DNA from: Kalaharituber pfeilii
Lineage: Eukaryota; Ascomycota; Pezizomycetes; Pezizales; Pezizaceae
DNA length: 64,000 nucleotides
NCBI GenBank assembly: GCA_015179045.1
Contig: WHUZ01000084.1
Span: 186,001-250,000 of the forward strand
Reading direction: 5' to 3'
Position numbers and translations under genes: made by a program. Below are positions 92 to 42,700 of the stretch, piece by piece; the stretch's first letter is position 1; the number at the start of each line of letters is the position of its first letter. The notes beneath the pieces are model-generated. The model did not search any database. It had not been told where the DNA came from and saw only the letters and a list, made by a program, of their open reading frames with translations.

Positions 92-3000
92 ATGGAAACC
101 CTGGAACTTGCAATGGGAACTATTATTGATAGGATGGCCACTTGTGAATTCTATGCTCGCATCTATAGGACTGCATCATTTGAGGTCACATTGCATTCAG
201 ACTTGAGTGAGGCTTTTAACCGCAAGTTGGGTTCTGCTCTGGACGAACTCTATGATGCGATTTCGAAGTTTACACTCGAAGTGCAAAAATATTTTGGTAG
301 CTCGGCATCCTGTAGGTTCAACTCAGTTTGGGACAGTTTGGACCTCACTAACGAGAACCAAATTTAGGGGCAACGAAGATAGGGAATCTCTTTGTGCCTT
401 TCTCAACATCGATGCAACCATTTCTTGATGAAATAGCTAGCAAGGAGAAGGCTATTCAGGAGTATGCAGAAATGGCTACAATGAAACGGGTTATGGGTAA
501 GAACGCTATGTGAGTCCCATATGGATAGGCAGTTTTATCTAATGAGAATAGAGAGTTCCAATGATCTCAAACAAATGGAGGGTCTTTTGAATGATATCAG
601 AGGGGAACTGAAACTTTTGTCTACCCTAGACAGTAAGTGCATGATTATATTAATTTCGGTCATAAGAAATTGTTATGCAATTTGATGCTAATTGTAATGA
701 ATAAATGCAGATATTTCCATGAACATGGAAGAAAGCCTTGCGGTTACTAGGGATATCAAGGATATGGTAACTACACTTGGTATGTTTATGCACACCTGTT
801 CACTGATCTCTTCTTTAACATAAATTAGTATCGAATCAACGTCAAACAGCGGGTTGGGAAACTTTAGATTCAGACTTTAAGCAGCTTAGGAAGAATTATG
901 TAGCTAAACATAAGCTGGAGTTTGAGTTTGACCTATATATTCGAGCAGAAGGAATGATACAACAACACGATAGCAATCGCTTTGATCTACTGGACGCTGT
1001 TCAAGAATTCCTTTCAGATGCCATGCCACAAAAGGTTTGCTTTATTTTAATTAATCATTTATCTTATTTCATTTGGTGCTTGCAGCCTTGCGGGCTTTTG
1101 CTAACTTGATGAGTGATTTAAAAGGTTTGCTTGATTCAAGGTGCTGCTGGATCTGGAAAATCAACGTTCAACCATCACCTTGCACAGCAGCTATGGTCTG
1201 TCTTTGACAAAGCTTCCAATAAAGAAATTGCAGTGGTTCCAGTATTTATATCACTCTCTAGAGTATATACATCTGGAACCCATAACCAAGATCTAATAGC
1301 TGCTTTCTTTACTAAACAAGGCTTTCATAAAGACCAAATAGACCTAGTTCGGCATCAACGGCAGTTCGTATTTATCTTGGATGGTTATGATGAAATTGAA
1401 AGACGAGATCGCAACTTTTATACCGAAAATGAGCTTGATACATGGAACGCTAAAGTGGTCATTACCAGCCGACCCGAATATTTGCCTCCTGGGTATCGAA
1501 GTCAGTTTTACCCCCGTGGTCAGCCAAAACTATTACAAGAATACTACCTTGCGCCATTTTCGAAGTCAAGCATCCGGAGGTATATTTCGCAATATGTGAA
1601 GGCTAGACCTGGTCACTCAGTTGAGGAGTTCGAACAGTATATACTAAAGCCCGATGTTTGTGCCTTAGTCAGCAACCCTTTCCTACTCAAAATGACTATG
1701 ACCGTGAAACCAGCTCACAGCAAAGACAAACTCAAGCGCGGAGATTTATATCATCAGTTCATTGATTATTGGATTAACCAGGCAAAGGAGCGTTTGGATA
1801 ATGTTCAACTACCAGGAGCCCAGCGTGATGCATATACCCAGTTAACTGACATCAACTTTAGTTTTCAAGCACGATACTTTTGTCAACAATTTGCACTAAC
1901 GCTCTATCGCTGTCAGGTATTAGAAGCAACCTATGTACCTACTAGTATTTTCTCCAATGCTATACCACAAGATCAGTCATCCTGGAAACGCTTTTTAGCA
2001 AATGATGATATCAAAGTACAAATTTTACGCCTCAGTTCACCGCTTATTCGACAGGACAATTTATACCGATTTTTACACAAGTCACTACGGGACTATTTGG
2101 TAGCCGAAGTAATTTTGGAGGATGAGGCATTCAAAGGGTGTAAAGCTAATGCACTAATCAATGAGTTTCATCTTGTTGATGATCCTGGTGTTCTTGATTT
2201 CGTTGTCGAAAAAGCATGGCAATTGCAAGACTATTTTTCGACCTTTATTGAGCGATCCAAAACTGATGCAAATTTTTCCACAGCATCAGCAAATGCAATT
2301 ACAGTTCTAGTTAGAGCAGGAAGGAGCTTTGCAGGTCATGATTTGCGTGGCATACGGATTCCTAGAGCAGATATAAGTCGTGGCTTCTTTGGTCGAGCTC
2401 AATTGCAAAATGCAGACCTACGTGAGGTTCGTACATATGGAGTCAACAAAACCTCATTACTTATACAATTAGCTAATGCTCTAGAGCAGATTCATATGCA
2501 TCAAACCTGGCTTGAGAAAGCAGACCTAAGTAAAGCTAGCATGAACAATGTATCGTTTGGGGAAAGACCTTTTATGCAACTACCAGTACCTCCCAATACA
2601 TGCGCCTTCTCTCCTGACGGCCAGCTGTTTGCCTCTAGCGGTAGTGATGGCACTATACGCCTGTGGTCAGTCCCACGTCATGAAACTATCCATACCTTTG
2701 AGGGTCATGGAGGCTCGGTATGGAGTGTCACCTTCTCCCCTGACGGCCAGCTGCTTGCCTCTGGCAGTGATGATCGTACTATACGGCTGTGGTCAGTCTC
2801 ACGTCATGAAACTATCCATACCTTTGAGGGTCATAGCAGCTGGGTATGGAGTGTTGCCTTTTCTCCTGATGGCCAGCTGCTTGCCTCTGGCAGTGGTGAT
2901 CGCACTATACGCCTGTGGTCAGTCTCACGTCATGAAATTATCCATATCTTTGAGGGCCATGGCGACTCAGTATGGAGTACCACCTTTTCTCCTGATGGCC

Positions 3001-4487
3001 AGCTGCTTGCCTCTGGCAGTGATGATTGTACTATACGGTTGTGGTCGGTCCTACGTCATGAAACTATCCATACCTTTGAGGGTCATAGCGATGGGGTACG
3101 GAGTGTCACCTTCTCTCCTGATGGCCAGCTGCTTGCATCTGGCAGTGGTGATTGCACTATACGCCTGTGGTCAGTCCCACGTCATGAAACTATCCATACC
3201 TTTGAGGGTCATAGTGACTGGATACGGAGTGTCGCCTTCTCCCCTGATGGCCAGCTGCTTGCCTCTGGCAGTGATGATCGCACCATACACTTGTGGTCAG
3301 TCCCACGTCATGAAACTATCTATGCCTTCGAGGGTCATGAAAGCTCGGTACGGAGTGTCACCTTCTCTCCTGATGGCCAGCTGCTTGCCTCTGGCAGTGA
3401 TGATCGCACTATACGCCTGTGGTCAGTCCCACGTCATGAAACTATCCATGCCTCTGAGGGTCATATCAACCGGGTATGGAGTGTTGCCTTCTCCCCTGAT
3501 GGCCAGCTGCTTGCCTCTGGCAGTGATGATCGCACTGTACGCCTGTGGTCAGTCCTACATCATGAAACTATCCATACCTTTGAGGGTCATAGTGATGGGA
3601 TACAGAGTGTCACCTTCTCTCCTAACGGCCAGCTGCTTGCCTCTGGCAGTGGTGATTGCACTATACGGCTGTGGTCAGTCTCACGTCATGAAACTATCCA
3701 TACCTTTGAGGGTCATAGCGATGGGGTACGGACTGTCACCTTTTCTCCTGACGGCCAGCTGCTTGCCTCTGGCAGTAGAGATCGCACTATACGCTTGTGG
3801 TCAGTCCCACGTCATGAAACTATCCATACCTTTGAGGGTCATAGCTACGGAGTACAGAGTGTCGCCTTCTCTCCTGATGGCCAGCTGCTTGCCTCTGGCA
3901 GTGATGATTGCACTATACGGCTATGGTCAGTTCAGCGTCAAGAGGCTATCTATACCCTCAATGGCCATAGCAATCAGGTATGGAGTGTCACCTTCTCGCC
4001 TGATAGCCAGCTGCTTGCCTCTGGCAGTAGAGATCACACTATACGGCTGTGGTCAGTCCCACGTCATGAAACCATCCATATCTTTGAGGGTCATAGTCAC
4101 TCAGTATGGAGTGTCGCCTTCTCTCCTGATGGCCAGCTGCTTGCCTCTGGCAGCAGAGATTGCACTACACGGCTGTGGTCAGTCCCACGTCATGAAAGCA
4201 TCCGTACCTTTGAGAGTCATAGTGGCCCAGTATTGAGTGTCGCCTTCTCTCCTGATAGACAGCTGCTTGCCTCTGGCAGTGATATAGTACATGTATGGCA
4301 AGTACAACACAAGGCAAGCCGCACATTAGACAATCATTCCTGGGAAATTACCTGTCTATGGGCAGTGCCCCAAAACAGACTCATCCTCACGAATGTAAAC
4401 ATTCAGGATGTGATCGGGCTCGACTCACTCAATTTTCGCCTGCTTGAACAACATGGAGCAGTTGGGGAGCCTATACTCACTGAGTAA
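92..4487 (+). CDS. NACHT/WD40 NOD-like receptor (STAND protein), 5' end unresolved
   Basis: Proposed exons 92-311, 368-489, 533-632, 711-779, 829-1034 and 1125-4487 keep one frame (about 1359 aa). The last exon opens in mid-protein: Walker A GAAGSGKST lies at its start (residues ~245-253), so a start inside that exon is wrong. The N-terminal helical part resembles the regions found ahead of NACHT in fungal STAND proteins. Walker B-like LDGYDE is at ~324-329, followed by ITSRPEY. A short pentapeptide-like stretch (A-D/N-L pattern, ~nt 2330-2430, resuming at ~2515) precedes 14 WD40 repeats of 42 aa (nt 2601-4302). Known role of the family: cytosolic sensors in heterokaryon incompatibility and non-self recognition; this function is inferred. 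An upstream exon is likely: the frame stays open back to an AG at 66-67, so the Met at 92 may be internal. No frameshift or stop is seen, so it looks intact. Confidence 0.85.
2601..4302 (+). repeat. 14 tandem WD40 repeats, 126-bp unit
   Basis: Units of 126 bp (42 codons) are nearly identical at DNA level, carrying the core FSPDGQLLASGS and TIRLWSV. Because the unit length is a multiple of three and so uniform, a second forward frame is also open from 2548 to 4236; that is a shadow. Differences concentrate in the residues after GH, one residue after the next V, the SxDx positions and the residue after WSV. Confidence 0.95.
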
Positions 4488-4874: not shown

Positions 4875-4931
4875 TTCAATGATTACACTCTCACTGTAGT
4901 TAGCCATTCGGTGGCACCGAGTTAGAGTCCG

Positions 4932-8785: not shown

Positions 8786-10030
8786 CTATTCTGCTAGCCA
8801 CTTCATCAGTCTGCTTAGAGGGTCCTCTTCCCCTTTCTTTGCCCGGGGGGGTTTCTTCACCTCCTCCATGCCCCCCAGCCACCTCCTCCGCCTTTCTTCT
8901 AGGATGTGTCTCGTTGTTTCTTCTCCCTCTCTGCACCACCTGCAGTCGGGGTCATCAGCCTTCCCAACATGCCATCTCCATGCCCTCAAACCCTTTCCCC
9001 CCAGAAATCCCGCCAGTCTCCCTGTCCTATGTCCCAGTCTCTCCAGAGGTTTGTATGATAACTCCAGCCTGTTCCTCTCCCCGGCTCTCTCCCTCCTGCC
9101 CCTCTGTCTAAGTCCCGCTTCCGTTATTATCTCCGGTTCGTTTTGTAGCGCCGTGCCCACCCTGGCCGCCTTGTCCGCCGCCTCGTTCCCGGGGATGCCT
9201 TTGTGTCCTTTAACCCATAGTACAGACAGGTCCTGGTCGCCCCGGTCTATCCTCCTCTCCCATGCCTCCCGGAGTCGGTTTGTTGCCCCGTCGTGCGTTG
9301 AGTTCCCTATCGCCGTAGCCGCCATTCTATTGATTGCGAACCTCAAGTCAGTTACGATCAATAGCTCTCCTTCTACCCTGTCCATTGCCTCGCTTATCGC
9401 AATTAGCTCCGCATCGTTCACCGTAGCATGTTCGCCTAGGTAGAATGAGGTCGCCTGGCCTCCCTGGTACATCCCCGCTCCTGCTCTGTCCCTCCTCATG
9501 CCGTCCGTGTATACGGGAGTCCACCCCTCGTCCGTAACATTGTCTATATGGTTTGTCCATTCCGTCTGATCCGCATCACGCTGTAGGGTCGGTAGGATTG
9601 CTAGTGAAAGTTCTCGACTGTGTGTCAGTGACCCTCTCAGATATAGTGCCTCCTCCTCCTCCCTTTGGAGCCTCTCCTCCGAGAACCTCAGCGCTCTCGC
9701 CTCCACGCGAGTAGCTTCCTATCTGACGAATGTATCTACGGACTCCAAGTTTGCCAGCCCCTCCACTACGTCGCGCCTGGTGCCCCAGGGTGCCTTTGTG
9801 ATCCCTCTCGCTACCGTATATTGCCACTTCTCCAGCTCTCTAATCTTCTTCTCTCTCGGTGCTCCGTGCGCATAGTCGTGCCATACCCACGCCCCCCAGG
9901 TGGCGATGTTCCGTGCGATGCTGGTGTATAGCTGTCTCTTCTTTGCCGGCTCCAACCTTGTGAGGCGTGACGCTGTCGACCACGCTGCCTTACCCAGGCT
10001 TAGCCGGCGTGTGTGGTGCTCGTTGAATTT
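8786..10030 (-). pseudogene. LINE reverse transcriptase C-terminus plus RNase H, one nonsense codon
   Basis: The minus-strand frame runs from the truncated RT region (LLNKFNEHHTRRLSLGKAAW onward) to a stop at 8786, broken by a single in-frame TAG at 9719-9721. RNase H acidic residues are visible in YTDG, DAEL, VTD and GNEAADKA. A knuckle of CRWC followed by GEETTRHILE lies near the end. The part of the frame above 10030 is minisatellite, not LINE. With one nonsense codon the copy is fairly young, but it has no RT core or endonuclease. Confidence 0.85.
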
Positions 10031-31371: not shown

Positions 31372-33538
31372 ATGGATTCGGTCCCAAGTTCCTCTCTAGT
31401 TAGCTGGACACCTCATGTTGATCTCCCTGTATCCTTGATACCTACTGTGCGCAAGTACATTGAGGCTATTCCACCTGCAGAAAGACTATCTCCGCTCGCA
31501 GACGAACAGTTTGAGGACCCAGATAGTGCTTATGATCGGTAAGGTCGATTTCCTGTTTTGTGTTCATGGCTTGATTACAAAATAGAATATCTGATAAGTG
31601 AATAGAATACAAAATGCTGCATTCGTAGCAGGGTTTACAGTAACCGGTTCACTGCAGCAGGGGCGAGTACGCTTCTGGTGTATACATTCAGGTATGACAA
31701 GGAACTTTTACCAGGTTACAGATGGTACTAGAAAGCGGCAGACTAGCTCATTAAAAATGGGATGCACTTATCGAGTATATATATCTTTAAGATCTGTTAG
31801 CAGGGAAGCTACTGGTACTAGAAAGCCTGGATGATTGGTCTCGGAGATACTACCCATAACCATGCAATGGCACCAAATCCTCTAAGTGTATTCTGTCCAT
31901 GAAAAGCGCCATCCAGATTTTATATGCCTACAGGTACAAGCTCGAGCTTTTCGAGAGGCCAATGTCTCTCACAATACAGCACTCCGCATTATGGCAAATG
32001 AGACCTTACAGCTTCGATCATCTACCTACTACAATTCTCAATGATCTAAAACCACACCCGGGCCTTCCATGAATACAGCAGGGCAGATGCTTGCAAATAT
32101 CCGAGCGGGCTTAACAGAAGCTGGGTTTCATGATCAGTCTTGCTACTCTTATACCCAAAGGGATGGATCTTTGGTTCCAGAATCCCAGCAACTAGAGCAA
32201 CTCTTTTTCTGCACGGATGATCAAATTAAGCTTGCCTGTATATTTGTTTCTCAATTTGTAATGCAAATTGATGAGTATATTTTCTACTAATATATTAACG
32301 CTACCTCTTTCTAGCTGTGTTGGTGTAACTAATACTTGCCTCACATATCTATTTGCTCTTTCTTTTATTCGTGCAGAAAGTAAGGAGGCATTTGATTCTA
32401 TTTTTGACTGTCTAGATGAACTTTTTTGGGTTGATAGTACTAGACCACGAGTTATCTTAGCTGACCAAGGTGCTAGACTTCTGGCTTCCTTTCAACTAAA
32501 ATTCAGTGATGGCTTGGTGCATCAACTGTGTGAGTGGCATGCAGCCGAGAATATCAAAGCGAGTCTCACCATCTCAGGCCGCTATGATAAGACAGTTCGT
32601 AACATCTTAGGCAACTACATTTGGAAATACATTAAAGCGTCAATAGTGGAAGCTCTACGCAAAGCACGGAAAGAGCTTTTAGATCAGCTCTATGATCCAG
32701 AAAAGGAGTATCTGCAAACATATTGGATTCCCAAAAAAGCACAATTCTGCCGCGCTTATGCAACTACCTATCTTAATCTTGGCTGTTTCTCAACTTCTCA
32801 ATGTACAGAAAGTTATCATCGCCCACTTAAGGAAGGTCTCAACACTCAACTCAGTTTCGAATCAGCAGTTAAAGCATTAACAGCCCACATTAAGTTCTTG
32901 GCACGGAAAGTTGATGAGGCAGAACGTGATAGCCGAATAAAAATTCCAATTGGAATTGATCAGAAGATATTTAGTGCTTTATTGCATAAAGTATCTTTTT
33001 TTTGCCCTAAATATTTTACGGATGCAGTGGGCAAAAGCATCAACAGACTTAGAATCCTGGACCGATTGCAGATGTAGTATTACCTAAATATGAGCCTTCT
33101 CACTACAAACTTAGGCCATTGTTTGAATCACAGACACTAATTCCGATTGCCTTGATTCATCCTAGACGGCTGTTAAGTGCATCAACCGAGCCTACAGTAT
33201 CAACATCTCAGGCTGCTGGATCACGGTCATTGCAAACAGATAGATTGTCCCATGGTCAAATAGTATCAGCTGGGTCATCAACTTTGCATAATCTGGTCAA
33301 ATCATCTGTTGAGTTAGAGCAACTTAAATTCCATGCTAGTCTGTCTAGTGAAGAAGCAGAGCGCTTTGCCTACCTTCAAGCCCATCAAACAGCTCAACTC
33401 ATTCAGCAGTTTGAAAATCGTCAGGTATTGCAAAACATACCAGAATGTTTACCACCTCCACCTACACCGCGATCGCATACCCTCAAAAGGCTTCGCACTG
33501 CAAATGAACAGGCTCTTGTACGTCTGGAGCAGCTGTAA
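31372..33538 (+). pseudogene. MULE transposase with frameshifts
   Basis: Exon 1 31372-31538 (MDSVPSSSLVSW) joins across an intron to RIQNAAFVAGF. The Cys/His DNA-binding region of FAR1/MULE proteins follows (FWCIHSG, KMGCTYRVYIS, to 31830). Frames then change repeatedly: near 31850, 31905 and 32050, and at ~32265, immediately after MQID (the expected first catalytic Asp). The second Asp is in ILADQGARLL (~32457) and the Cys/His pair in CEWHAAENIK. The Glu is in CTESYH (~32806). A coiled C-terminal part is read at 33119-33538. With several frameshifts it cannot encode an active enzyme. Confidence 0.8.
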
Positions 33539-37717: not shown

Positions 37718-39757
37718 GTGACGACCCAATCGCTGGCACTATCCTTATACACACGAAGCGCGACTGCGGAGGCTCGACACATACAGCGCAGCGGAACCTG
37801 TCTGCTGATGACAACCTCGGCCTCGACCGACAGAAGCGCGCCCGACGGCGACGCAGTTCCGCGCCCGGGCAGCGCGAGGCACATCTGGAACACACTCGTT
37901 GCGGCGTATCCGCGCGCTGAGGGCCCCTTCGCCCCGCGCCATCCGCTGCGGCCGCTGCCGGCAGCAATCAGGCGGCCCGGCCTCCCCAGGCTCTCGCTGC
38001 GGACCAGCCCGCAGGACCTTCTGTACGGGCCGCGCATCACCCTCGCCCCGTCTGGAGCCGACCGCCCGAGCGCGCTGTACCATGAGGACGCCCGGCCGCC
38101 CTTCTCGTGGCCCGCGAGGGATGTGCACGGCTGGACGACGCTGCCCCCGCTGTCGGATTCAACGCCCCCCGCGCTGCCCGACCCCTCGCCCCCCACGCAT
38201 CCCTTCTTTTATTTGGCCCATGAGGAGGCCGTCGCAGCGGAAGAAGCGACTGCTGCAGCAGGGGCGCCAAACGCTGGGGGCGTGGGGCTGCCGGAGCCCC
38301 CAGCGGATTATGCGTCAGAGGCCAGTTCAGAATCCGGATCCTCAGCGCCGCCACCAAGGCCTCCAAGGCGAACGAAGCATAGCCGTCTCTGGCGGCATAT
38401 TCAGCACATACTGGATTCTCTATGGCCGCGAGCATCGCTGCTCATGAGTGTAGCGACAATCTCGGCCGGGTTATACTTGCTAGGTTGCCCGTTGACATTC
38501 CTTGCGCCAATAAAACCAATTCTTGTCACTTGGGGATTTATACCGAACGATGGCGAATGTGTGGGCCACGCGCATGAGCTCACATTTTTCGTTGCAGTAT
38601 TCATGATAACGGTATATCTTTCTTTTTTTTTTTCTTTTTTTTTTGTCACGTGACCCCGCAAGTAGCTTTTCGCCATAGCAGGGCTAACAGTATGTCTGAA
38701 GAGATTTGTAAATTCGTATCCTGGACTCGAAGGCTACTTTCTCCTACGGGATCTCTTTTTAGGGACCTATGTAGTTAGAAAGGTTGCGATATACCTTTGG
38801 GAGGCCGGCTTGTACCCTGTTGAAGAAGATGAGTGGGTTCTCATAAAGTCTGGGTCCTTCGTCGATTTCCTGCGCGACTACGTTCCCAAGATTTCATCGC
38901 ACTCAAGGGCAAGATACTGCGAGGCATACGCTTATCCTCCGTTCACGCCTTTCGAGAACAGCCATTGTGGCAGTAATGTGTCTGGCTGGACGCAGGAGAC
39001 CAAGGTTTCATGGCACGACAGTGTCCCACTCGGGGAAGCAGATTGGGGCTTCTATAGGACTGTTGCTCTCTATAGTCTCTCCGTGCTCGCTTACTTTGGC
39101 GCGTTTCCCATCTTCTGTGGGGTCATTCAGGAGGGTACGTCGCTTGCCCATGAGTATGTTTTTACGAAATTCCCCTGCTTCATGGGATACTTCTTGTACC
39201 ACTGTTCCTGCATTGTAATTCATACACTGCCCACTACCTTTTTGCTGCACATACCTGCCGCAATCCTGAAATCAGAAGTCGCATCTACCACAGGCTTCCT
39301 CACCGTTGTCACTATTCTGGAAGCATATCTGGCTCGACATTATCTCAAGCCAAAATACGAATGGGAGCTTCAGGCCACCTTTGCAGTGTATAAGGTTATC
39401 GGCATGGCTGCTTGGACTATCCTCGTCGCAGTTGCCTGGCAACTTTGGACATCTATCTGGATCAAGTTGTACACAGCTCACCGACGTGGTCCGAGGATTA
39501 AAAACACAGCGAAGCGGAAAGGGATATTGGGCTGGGTATGTAGACGGTTTCTTGCATACTATGATGGCTTTTTCAGGGCATCGTGGACAAGTTATCCCAC
39601 CATTGCATTCCCGGAGTACGGGGCAGGAAAACGAGCAAGCTATACGTTCGTAATATGGCTGAATTTCATGTTAAAATGCCTTATTATACTGTTAACTGCC
39701 ATCAGGGCAGTGAGAGTTATATGGGCCCTTTGCCTTTGGGTGTTTTTCTGGAGGTGA
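37718..39757 (+). CDS. Multi-span membrane protein interrupted by a mini-retroposon, perhaps spliced out
   Basis: Two frames in the same phase (37718-38619 and 38698-39757) are one protein, separated by a family A insertion. Without splicing, the insert gives a TGA and a TAG. A 54-nt intron 38612-38665 (GTATATC..AAGTAG), with a 30-nt T-rich tract, would join ATA-ACG to CTT-TTC-GCC in frame. It would yield 661 aa with eight added hydrophobic residues (LFAIAGLT). The N-terminal third is Pro/Ser-rich; the rest has about seven hydrophobic segments, including ASLLMSVATISAGLYLLGC, VALYSLSVLAYFGAFPIFC and FMLKCLIILLTAI. No family recognised. The start is uncertain, with several Met in the GC-rich first 100 codons. 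If the intron is not used the gene is broken. Confidence 0.6.
38620..38685 (-). mobile_element. Mini-retroposon, family A, copy 6, inside a coding region
   Basis: Target duplications are AACGGTATATCT (38608-38619) and AACAGTATGTCT (38686-38697). The minus-strand core GCCCTGCTATGGCGAAAAGC continues with TACTTGCGGGGTCACGTGAC and a poly-A. The stem GCCCTGC/GCGGGGT has two wobbles. Element plus one duplication is 78 bp. Confidence 0.85.
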
Positions 39758-42700
39758 AAGTAACCTATGGCTCTTTTTCCATAGGGCAGAAAAGTATCTC
39801 TGGTTGCTGGGACACGTTGGAGTGCTATCTAAACTAATGGATCTTTTCTGGTTTGGGAGTCATGTCGACATATATACCTACCAAAGGATAAATTGACCAT
39901 TGGATACCAAGGACAATCTCAACACAATCGTCATATGTCAATATCAAAATCAGGAGCAGCCGAGTCTGCCGTTGGCGCCATTTTCTTACAATCAGCCGAG
40001 TGGTAGACTAGAATTTTCATTACACTCTAATTGGTCTGTCACCTTGGGTACGAGAACACAGTCATCACATGTTTTTGGTTATTTTAATTTTAGGCACTCG
40101 CTACATAAATATATATCGCTGTTTTGTTTAATTTAGCTATGATTTGTACTACACTTTCATTTGGTTTCACGCTTGAAGTCTTTATCTAAGAATCATCGAG
40201 CCTTCTCATAGCATTGGTCAACTAAGTGCTTGTAATACACCCAATCCGTGTTCCGAGCAAGTTAGCCTACAGTCTGGCTAGCTACTATGTGACACTTTAA
40301 GTGCCTACAAATGTGCAACCAAGGTGGATTTTCTTGAAGTTTGCCCACAGCCATGCAGCAGCGTGAGCCAGTGCAATTTTGTTTTTTCAGGGATTCTACA
40401 GGAGACACACGCATCGATCGAGGCCTTCGAATTCGTTACACTTTCATGCACCAACACGCATACAAGGCCAGAGGCCAGACAGAGATTGGAAGATTTTACA
40501 TCTTTAATGGGATATTTTTACATATTTTATGGGATATGCAACAGCACCATTTATGGAATACCTCGACTTAATATCAGGATTTTGACTCGAGACTATATCT
40601 TGTAGGACAGTGGGCTATGGCACATACGTATTACAGCATGGTGTGCATCGCCTAGATAGGCCAAGCAATATCGGATTTGCGGCCGAGGGGGCGCAGTAGC
40701 GAGATTTACGAAATGCAATCATCTAAACATGGATAATGTCAGAGATCGTACCTAGCTGGTAACCTATTACTACTCAGAACACCAACCACCCCCGAGGTAG
40801 TATGAGACAGAACTGAGTGTATCATGTGCAGCATCGCTCGTATCTCTGAATTTTTTTTTCAAACAATGAGATAAAGCATAGGTATTGGTTCAGTAACAAT
40901 GGCCTTATTGAGGCTGATATTCATTAACTAAAACCGGGACAGTCCCCACGACCGAAGTGATCTGGTCCCCCCCTCCCACTCTTGATCTTTTGTTAATAAC
41001 CAACATATTCTTTGTTTGCAGGGCCGTGTGGATAATACTATTTTGCCAAGAAAAACCCATATAGTCCTTTGTTACACGGACGCCTTTTTTTCCACATGCA
41101 AGAATGTGAATGGTCACAGTTACGATCGCAATTTACAACCAATCACATCTACTTCGTGACCACCGTTCCTCGCATGCACGACCGGATAGCTGCCACTTTT
41201 GGCCTGGGACCCTGATACAAAAGCGACTGTAAAGATTGAGAACGTAAACATGCCTTACTTAAGGGATGCCACAGCATTGATATGAGTATGTTATATTTTG
41301 AGCTTGGGGTTCATTGCCTTCTATGCCGCTAACTAACCTCCTTCTAGAACTCGCTCCAGTATTTTTTTTTTTTTTTGTTTGTGTGTGTGTGCAACTGGAG
41401 TCTACCATCTACAGTCGCTTGCTTCTGTATACATAGCGCCTAGAAGCAAATCGCTGGAAGAGGCGATTTTAAACCCAAAAAAAAAAAAAAAAAAAAAAGT
41501 ACTGGCAAGTCTTGGTCTAATCACAAACGTTACTCTTCGTATCAGCATCAATTTTCTCCTTGTTTTCCCACTTCCATATCTCGATCCGCAAAAAATTTAC
41601 TATCATTATTATTATTATTATTTTTTCCCCTAATTATTTATTTAGGTTTTTTTTATATCTCAGAAGATTGTCGTATATGGTGTGTATAGTGGGCATTATG
41701 CGAGACAAAACACCCAACCAGGGTTGTGCTTTTTTCTTTTTTCTCATCTGCCACAGCTGCGGGCACCTTGGTGGGTAGTTGAGTCGAGGACAAGAAAGCG
41801 CTAACTGTGACGAAACCTGGGGCTGCTGCATTACCGTACAAGGGAGAAGTAGCGTAACCGCACTAATCTTTTGTCGTTGTGTGGGGGGCGCCCTACTCTA
41901 CTCAAGTATGATATTGTATCACTCAGTATTTGATTTTTTGCTAGAGGTTTTTCGCATTCTCAAGCTGACTATGGGCCGTGCATTGCTACACCTTACTAAT
42001 CTTGTGTGGCCAACCGAGTGGTCCTAGTATCTCATGTAAAAAAAGCCTAATAGCATGGCCACAGCTTACTCGGAATTTTAATGCCAAAAAAGACAAGTTT
42101 CCCTTCGGCGAGGCCAACCTTGTTGGACGATACTAGTATGATACTTACATCACCACTGGCCTGATCCACTCAACTGTAAAAAAATCCGCGATGGGACGAC
42201 AGGCCATAGACGAATTTCCGCTGACATCAACAGTTGGGGGGGACCATGTAGAAGCATCCCTGGACTATCATAGCCTGACAGCAGGAAGCAACTTGATTTG
42301 TTTGTGAAAAAAAAAAGCAATACGTTACCGTTCTACCGTGTTTACGACACCAGTTCTACTGGTGATCTCGATGACACTAGGTATATACGCTGCAAAACCA
42401 TCTAGCTAACTACAGCAGGTGGATGTATCTAGGTAGGAAAGCCGTCTGTGAGAATTATTACGAACCTGAAGCCGTTTAGCAGTAATATAAGCTACCAAGG
42501 TACTTGCTATTAGTATTTTACTTGATGTTCCTTCTGCGCTTTTGGCTTGCGCACGACTGGTAGACCATTCATGATCTCATGCCCAGCCTACGGGACGGTG
42601 CGCTGCAGTGTCGAATATTCGTGACATACTTAGGCCGCCATGCAAATAGACCAGTATTTAGCGAACACTTGTATGCGGCCCGCAGCCATCCGCGCCACGG

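Follow-up and report, generated by a model that had tools for sequence, protein, structure and literature searches.

An antisense mini-retroposon in a membrane-protein gene of Kalaharituber pfeilii and its probable removal as a young intron

A retroposon copy within a coding frame

The DNA analysed here, hereafter the window, is a 64-kb stretch of the 78.0-Mb assembly of the desert truffle Kalaharituber pfeilii (Ascomycota, Pezizaceae; C344:186001-250000; positions below are those of the window). It contains a gene, BDZ91DRAFT_745845 in the NCBI annotation, whose coding frame is interrupted by an antisense copy of a 40-bp mini-retroposon. From 38607 to 38697, a target duplication, a 25-nt T-run including two C, the antisense core and a second target duplication follow each other (Table 1). 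The frame on the left of the insert (37808-38611) and the frame on its right (38666-39757) are in phase with each other, and both copies of the duplication read T-V in the same phase. The insert (38620-38684) and one duplication sum to 78 bp, and when these are set aside, a single stop-free frame of 657 amino acids (aa) remains. It is the longest such frame among 93 copies of the element tested in this way, and likewise among 112 in a later, larger set. If the insert is retained, translation runs through ...MITVYLSFFFSFFFVT into a stop (TGA, 38651-38653), then PRK, a second stop (TAG, 38663-38665) and LFAIAGLT. The initial annotation had described an element splitting an otherwise continuous membrane-protein frame, the 78-bp sum and the succession of TGA and TAG in unspliced RNA, and all three hold on re-reading of the sequence. 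The interval that it gave (38608-38697) designates the right locus but starts one base too late to take in the whole left duplication; the duplications, described as 12 bp with two mismatches, are real and have two mismatches, but their length is 13 bp.

It is very improbable that nothing was interrupted at all, the two halves being separate genes or the left part being noncoding. Such an arrangement would agree with the GC- and proline-rich composition of the N-terminal stretch and with the omission of 37808-38443 from the NCBI model. However, frame and phase agree across the insert, the T-V reading is in phase in both duplications, and no ATG lies near the beginning of the right half.

P0001, the protein predicted for the gene at NCBI, matches the part of the frame that follows the insert. 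The gene is single-copy in the K. pfeilii genome, where this part, used as a protein query, finds one locus only. No Pfam family is above its cut-off, the nearest being 7TM_GPCR_Srh (23.4 against a cut-off of 26.3). The hydropathy profile of P0001 shows eight peaks of at least 1.3, and the gene probably encodes an orphan polytopic membrane protein. Structure prediction without alignment gave a mean pLDDT (predicted local distance difference test) of 42 and is of no use here.

Table 1. Features of the interrupted gene, of the insert and of its candidate splice signals
Feature	Position	Strand	Remarks
Open reading frame upstream of the insert, starting at ATG 37808	37808-38611	+	NCBI model begins later, at 38444
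Exon 1 of BDZ91DRAFT_745845, ending ...VFMIT (ACG)	38444-38611	+	P0001 mapped onto the window
Left target duplication, TAACGGTATATCT	38607-38619	+	11/13 identical with right copy
Candidate donor GTATAT, in left duplication	38612-38617	+	Common to the initial and NCBI models; scores equal to or above 4 of 11 genome introns
T-run corresponding to the poly(A) tail in antisense, interrupted by two C	38620-38644	+	
Mini-retroposon core, 40 bp	38645-38684	- (sense strand)	4 mismatches with the first scan consensus, 5 with the majority of 134 copies
CGTGAC, branch-point-like, for a 54-nt intron	38649-38654	+	12 nt from the intron end; GTGAC matches 4/5 of CTRAY
TAG, candidate acceptor of a 54-nt intron, within the element	38663-38665	+	YAG there in 110/134 copies (mildly biased figure)
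Element stretch exonised as LFAIAG if the intron has 54 nt	38666-38684	+	
CTAAC, perfect CTRAY match	38684-38688	+	14 nt from the end of a 90-nt intron; junction of element C and duplication TAAC
Right target duplication, TAACAGTATGTCT	38685-38697	+	
AAG, candidate acceptor of a 90-nt intron (38612-38701)	38699-38701	+	
Exon 2 of the NCBI model, RFVNSYPG...FFWR	38702-39753	+	Stop-free
Second intron implied by the NCBI model, GTGAAA...CCATAG	39754-39784	+	31 nt; shorter than all 11 checked introns

A family of short A-tailed retroposons

Read in sense, the consensus of the element is GCCCTGCCATGGCGAACAGCTGCA(C/T)GCGGGGTCACGTGAC, followed by an A-tail. The exact core 15-mer GTCACGTGACCCCGC occurs 190 times in the 78-Mb genome while its reversed control is absent. 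In a genome search with the core, 40 of 763 candidates were scored and all 40 are matches (39 besides the query locus), with a best E value of 2e-19. Five copies with at most 13 mismatches were recognised in the 64-kb window, against none in five shuffles (one strand each), and GTCACGTGACYCCG is found there five times at up to two mismatches for 0.50 expected. Since five such copies lie in this window alone, the true copy number exceeds 190. The other copies of the window, of varied ages, begin at 4931, 10359, 18167, 19550 and 19763 (first base of the core or of its matched part).

The 3' end of the element is constant, the A-run beginning at about core position 39-40 in the inspected copies. 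Tail lengths range from 6 to 54 nt, mostly 15-30. A target duplication of at least 9 bp flanks 102 of 134 distinct copies, as detected by a finder that itself demanded an A-rich tail; most duplications are 9-16 bp long (about 10-15 bp in the first inspected set), and 77 of the 96 copies with a duplication of at least 10 bp show no mismatch in it. This anatomy, combined with established knowledge, suggests a mini-retroposon resembling short interspersed nuclear elements (SINEs) and mobilised by a long interspersed nuclear element (LINE). RNase H-like frames surround some of the copies.

A search of Rfam with one copy gave no convincing match (best E value 5.6). The first 21 bases of the element nevertheless resemble the start of the K. 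pfeilii signal recognition particle (SRP or 7SL) RNA (C328:148914-149181), with 14-15 positions identical in register. A likeness of 14/21 was equalled by 1 of 5000 shuffles in that register and by 76 of 5000 in any register, so that the resemblance is suggestive only. The accessible part of PMC10886601 restricts the known 7SL-derived SINEs to primates, rodents and hagfishes. Two lower-scoring SRP RNA-like loci, at C223:25361-25641 (72.7 bits) and C39:51901-52227 (45.9 bits, against 142.2), are possibly degenerate copies.

Removal of the insert by splicing or loss of the gene

The initial annotation had proposed that the insert leaves the transcript through a GT-AG exit starting at GTATAT. The NCBI model independently uses this donor, at 38612, but its acceptor is at 38701 instead of 38665. 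In P0001 the junction VFMIT/RFVNSYPG indeed corresponds to an intron of 90 nt (38612-38701), which comprises the element, the right duplication and four more bases; such splicing deletes VCLK relative to the empty site. The genome paper of K. pfeilii, in the part that is accessible, states that transcriptomes aided annotation when available (PMC7550596). Because the same model implies a second intron of only 31 nt, it is not taken as proof of a transcript. The frame might equally end at a TGA within 39754-39784.

The history that fits these observations best begins with the insertion of the retroposon, in antisense, into a coding exon of the membrane-protein gene. The left duplication would have supplied the donor GTATAT, the insertion junction itself would have created the CTAAC branch motif for the acceptor at 38701, and the insert, now old, would be spliced out as a young intron. 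An intron older than the insertion is ruled out because, without the insert, the site offers only 12 nt from GTATGT through GAAG; the order of events would be insertion first and intron afterwards. Splicing of the insert, predicted from the sequence and from the gene model, is considered probable. The NCBI model would then mirror real transcripts, and the gene would still be functional.

The competing explanation, already named in the initial annotation, is a plain loss of the gene: the transcript would keep the insert, translation would stop at the TGA, and the annotated intron would be a detour of the prediction program round the stops. The retained insert does close the frame, and the implied 31-nt intron is suspicious. 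However, in spite of the divergence of the insert, no stop closes the two flanks over at least 1,221 bases of coding sequence, and the donor and the intron sizes match those of K. pfeilii introns. A broken gene thus appears less likely than splicing, and is held to be rather unlikely.

The insert does not look young. Two of the 13 duplication positions differ (counted by eye), while a reference set of 43 young copies (0-2 core mismatches) has 8 duplication differences in 548 bp, and three of the 40 core positions at the locus are nearly private, being present in at most 3 of the 133 other copies. With the divergence set at five changes in 66 sites, neutral evolution of the 1,221 bases of the two main exons should have produced about 4 stops, or 7-10 stops and frameshifts, and between 4 and 12 such lesions over the settings as a whole, where none is observed; the probability of none is 0.0007-0.06 across settings and depends on the event count and on the assumed share of indels. 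Flanks that stay open despite an aged insert favour a gene that has been kept and, hence, removal of the insert.

Several points weigh against splicing. The age argument comes down to five changes in 66 sites, which are few events, and a duplication mismatch also occurs in 7 of the 43 young copies. The NCBI model of the locus may be a computed guess. A damaged locus elsewhere in the genome (L059, see below) likewise offers an in-frame GT-AG exit. Moreover, neither the right exon (E value at most 0.001, 1837 candidates) nor P0001 (E value at most 10, 4369 candidates) has a relative other than itself in the protein collection searched, so that neither constraint nor the ancestral frame can be checked against a homologue.

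Splice signals and choice of the acceptor

Introns of K. pfeilii were sampled in small-GTPase genes (18 short regions), and their junctions were set by eye so that the protein reads on continuously; one junction (L120), whose join meets a stop, was left out. The 11 introns retained measure 50-120 nt. Their donors include GTATGT (3/11) and GTATGC (2/11), and their acceptors are TAG (7), CAG (3) and AAG (1). A ZIP gene of the window has an intron, also read by eye, of 58 nt from GTAAGT to ATAG.

According to the initial annotation, GTATAT and AAGTAG bound an intron of 54 nt, a size in keeping with this genome. These motifs do start at 38612 and end at 38665, respectively, and 54 nt falls within the range of the 11 introns. 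Splicing there would join MIT to LFAIAGLTVCLK, both halves remaining in frame with eight added hydrophobic residues (LFAIAGLT), as had been proposed, inside a membrane helix. The second in-frame acceptor, at 38701, had not been mentioned; both acceptors keep phase 0.

The signals of the two candidate acceptors point in different directions. The consensus of the branch motif is CTRAY. The acceptor at 38701 is slightly favoured over 38665, because a perfect CTAAC stands 14 nt upstream of it and because the NCBI model uses it. The acceptor triplet and the hydropathy, or helix length, lean instead to 38665: TAG is the commonest acceptor in the intron set, YAG is kept at this place in most copies of the family, and the best 19-residue hydropathy mean rises from 1.74 for the empty site to 2.60 for the 54-nt product, against 1.18 for the 90-nt product. 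Nevertheless, the CGTGAC of the 54-nt intron deviates from CTRAY, the NCBI model takes 38701, and 54 nt is close to the shortest intron seen (50 nt). The exact 54-nt intron, which is one form of the splicing preferred here, is proposed tentatively, and the odds are against it.

Behaviour of other copies of the family

The initial annotation also inferred that the element behaves like an introner. As a property of the family, this is unsupported so far: among 143 copies recognised, 112 of which have a duplication and were frame-tested, no second copy was shown to be an intron. At the sequence level, the element does bring splice sites, the donor lying in the left duplication of the window copy and CAG or TAG standing at the place equivalent to 38665 in 110 of 134 copies read in antisense, a mildly biased figure since nine loci had also been picked by a CAG-containing pattern. 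At this level, the family therefore carries a latent 3' splice site.

A retroposon-type introner family, in which antisense copies regularly turn into introns by means of the T-run, GTGAC and YAG, would be consistent with the joint presence of GTGAC and YAG in 87 of 134 antisense copies, a strongly biased figure since most loci were picked by a GTGAC-containing pattern. It would also agree with the scarcity of stops in the stretch to be exonised, which is open in 131, 127 and 134 of the 134 copies in its three frames. On the other hand, no second intron was demonstrated, frames of at least 300 aa are no commoner at empty sites (4 of 93, that of the window among them) than at random positions (7.5%), and donor hexamers occur in 6 of 102 duplications versus 20 of 507 control stretches, without clear enrichment. 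Regular conversion of antisense copies into introns is thus regarded as quite improbable.

Antisense copies in frames of at least 150 aa number eight: that of the window and those of L059, L063, L090, L032, L135, L141 and L029. The window, L059 and L090 were inspected closely; L063 and L032 lie within RNase H-like sequence. A search for donors upstream of antisense copies gave GTATGT in 2 places and GTAT in 24 among the places listed, one of which is the window and one element being counted twice. Copies were recognised in 8 of 12 further GTAT loci with short flanks, five of them with a duplication and hence frame-tested, the longest frames being 185 aa (L135) and 171 aa (L141).

The locus L059 (positions 1388-2634, C46) was considered as a replicate, its antisense copy lying in a long frame from which an in-frame GT-AG exit is possible, and was rejected on account of an extra frameshift and stops. 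It has an uninterrupted paralogue, 71% identical and with a 551-aa frame (L093, C1:1968692). None of the 7993 candidates sharing most words with the L093 protein had an E value of 0.001 or below. Given the extra frameshift, the stops and the failure to find a protein with L093, L059 is likely a pseudogene. The pair has a kinase-like stretch, with a weak Kdo kinase match under the cut-off. In the antisense copy of L090, in an ankyrin-like frame, reading by eye found no in-frame exit from the weak donor GTCTTT, and this candidate was also rejected. The look-up of gene models covered the copy of the window, which a model backs, and L093, for which none was found.

A related proposal is that the family is of LINE type and carries a ready-made 3' splice site in antisense (T-run, branch-like GTGAC and YAG), that insertions into exons beside a GT are therefore born spliceable, and that the window locus is a fossilised case of this, with a donor supplied by the target duplication and a second branch point made by the insertion junction. 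It is viewed as improbable too, if somewhat less so.

A young copy in sense orientation was noticed at L017 (G000:C309, near 192,683), where the element occupies locus positions 1485-1524, with 2 mismatches and a 12/12 duplication. The frame, of 470 aa without the insert, is open with it and would gain CPALASSCMRGHVT and a poly-lysine run; its right flank matches no Pfam family. Elsewhere in the window, a 1,121-aa frame with many WD40 repeats (1122-4484) and two frames of mobile elements were seen, one with RNase H (8789-9718, minus strand) and one encoding a MULE transposase (32262-33074, plus strand).

Relation to known systems

Introners that bring their 3' splice site and recruit the 5' site from the target duplication, adding or removing codons in some cases, have been described (Gozashti et al. 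2022, PMC9860276, in its accessible part). Those of Symbiodinium, for example, have a 4-bp target site duplication (TSD), and a 54-nt intron in K. pfeilii would share their arrangement of an element-borne 3' site and a duplication-borne 5' site. According to the same text, introners are mostly DNA-transposon-like and form introns in many genes, whereas the K. pfeilii element has an A-tail, TSDs mostly of 9-16 bp and one gene concerned; the ascomycete families described there have neither TSDs nor terminal inverted repeats (TIRs). Introner-like elements of fungi (van der Burgt 2012; PMC4457414) are also new ascomycete introns arising from a repeated element. The term "target site" does not occur in the accessible text of PMC4457414, and the K. 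pfeilii copies sampled show no excess of long frames. No publication joining Kalaharituber with introner was found in the open-access literature, nor was any open-access paper combining introner with LINE and SINE terms.

The antisense Alu elements of primates offer another likeness, their poly(A) giving a T-run followed by element-borne AG acceptors. Exonisation of Alu creates new exons within existing introns. An Alu thus makes an exon inside an intron, whereas the K. pfeilii element would make an intron inside an exon. Closer in outcome are the introns due to transposon insertion in rice catalase and in maize, where a mobile element in an exon is spliced away; that of rice catalase is reportedly SINE-like. 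In fungi, the SINEs exemplified by AfuSINE of Aspergillus fumigatus are also short noncoding retroposons, with TSDs of 4-14 bp. In the accessible part of PMC5063351, such elements are related to tRNA or 5S RNA, whereas the K. pfeilii core has about 40 bp and the copy tested had no convincing Rfam match. As regards insertion introns, 35 events are listed for Oryza, Drosophila, Oikopleura and Zea, and no fungus is given for that mechanism in the part of PMC3443670 that was accessible. The principle is thus known, while the carrier and the lineage are new as far as the literature searches show, which is not proof.

The birth of introns is still debated, and there are few cases in which the inserted element and both duplications are legible. 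If the insert is spliced, an A-tailed retroposon has given rise to an intron in the Ascomycota, where the introners described lack target duplications; relative to these published elements, an intron born in this way would be a new variant. The latent acceptor carried in antisense by most of the sampled copies would then explain how insertions can be survived, as antisense Alu does for exons. Should the improbable reading in which insertions beside a GT are born spliceable also be true, K. pfeilii would provide the first ascomycete introner of the retroposon type.
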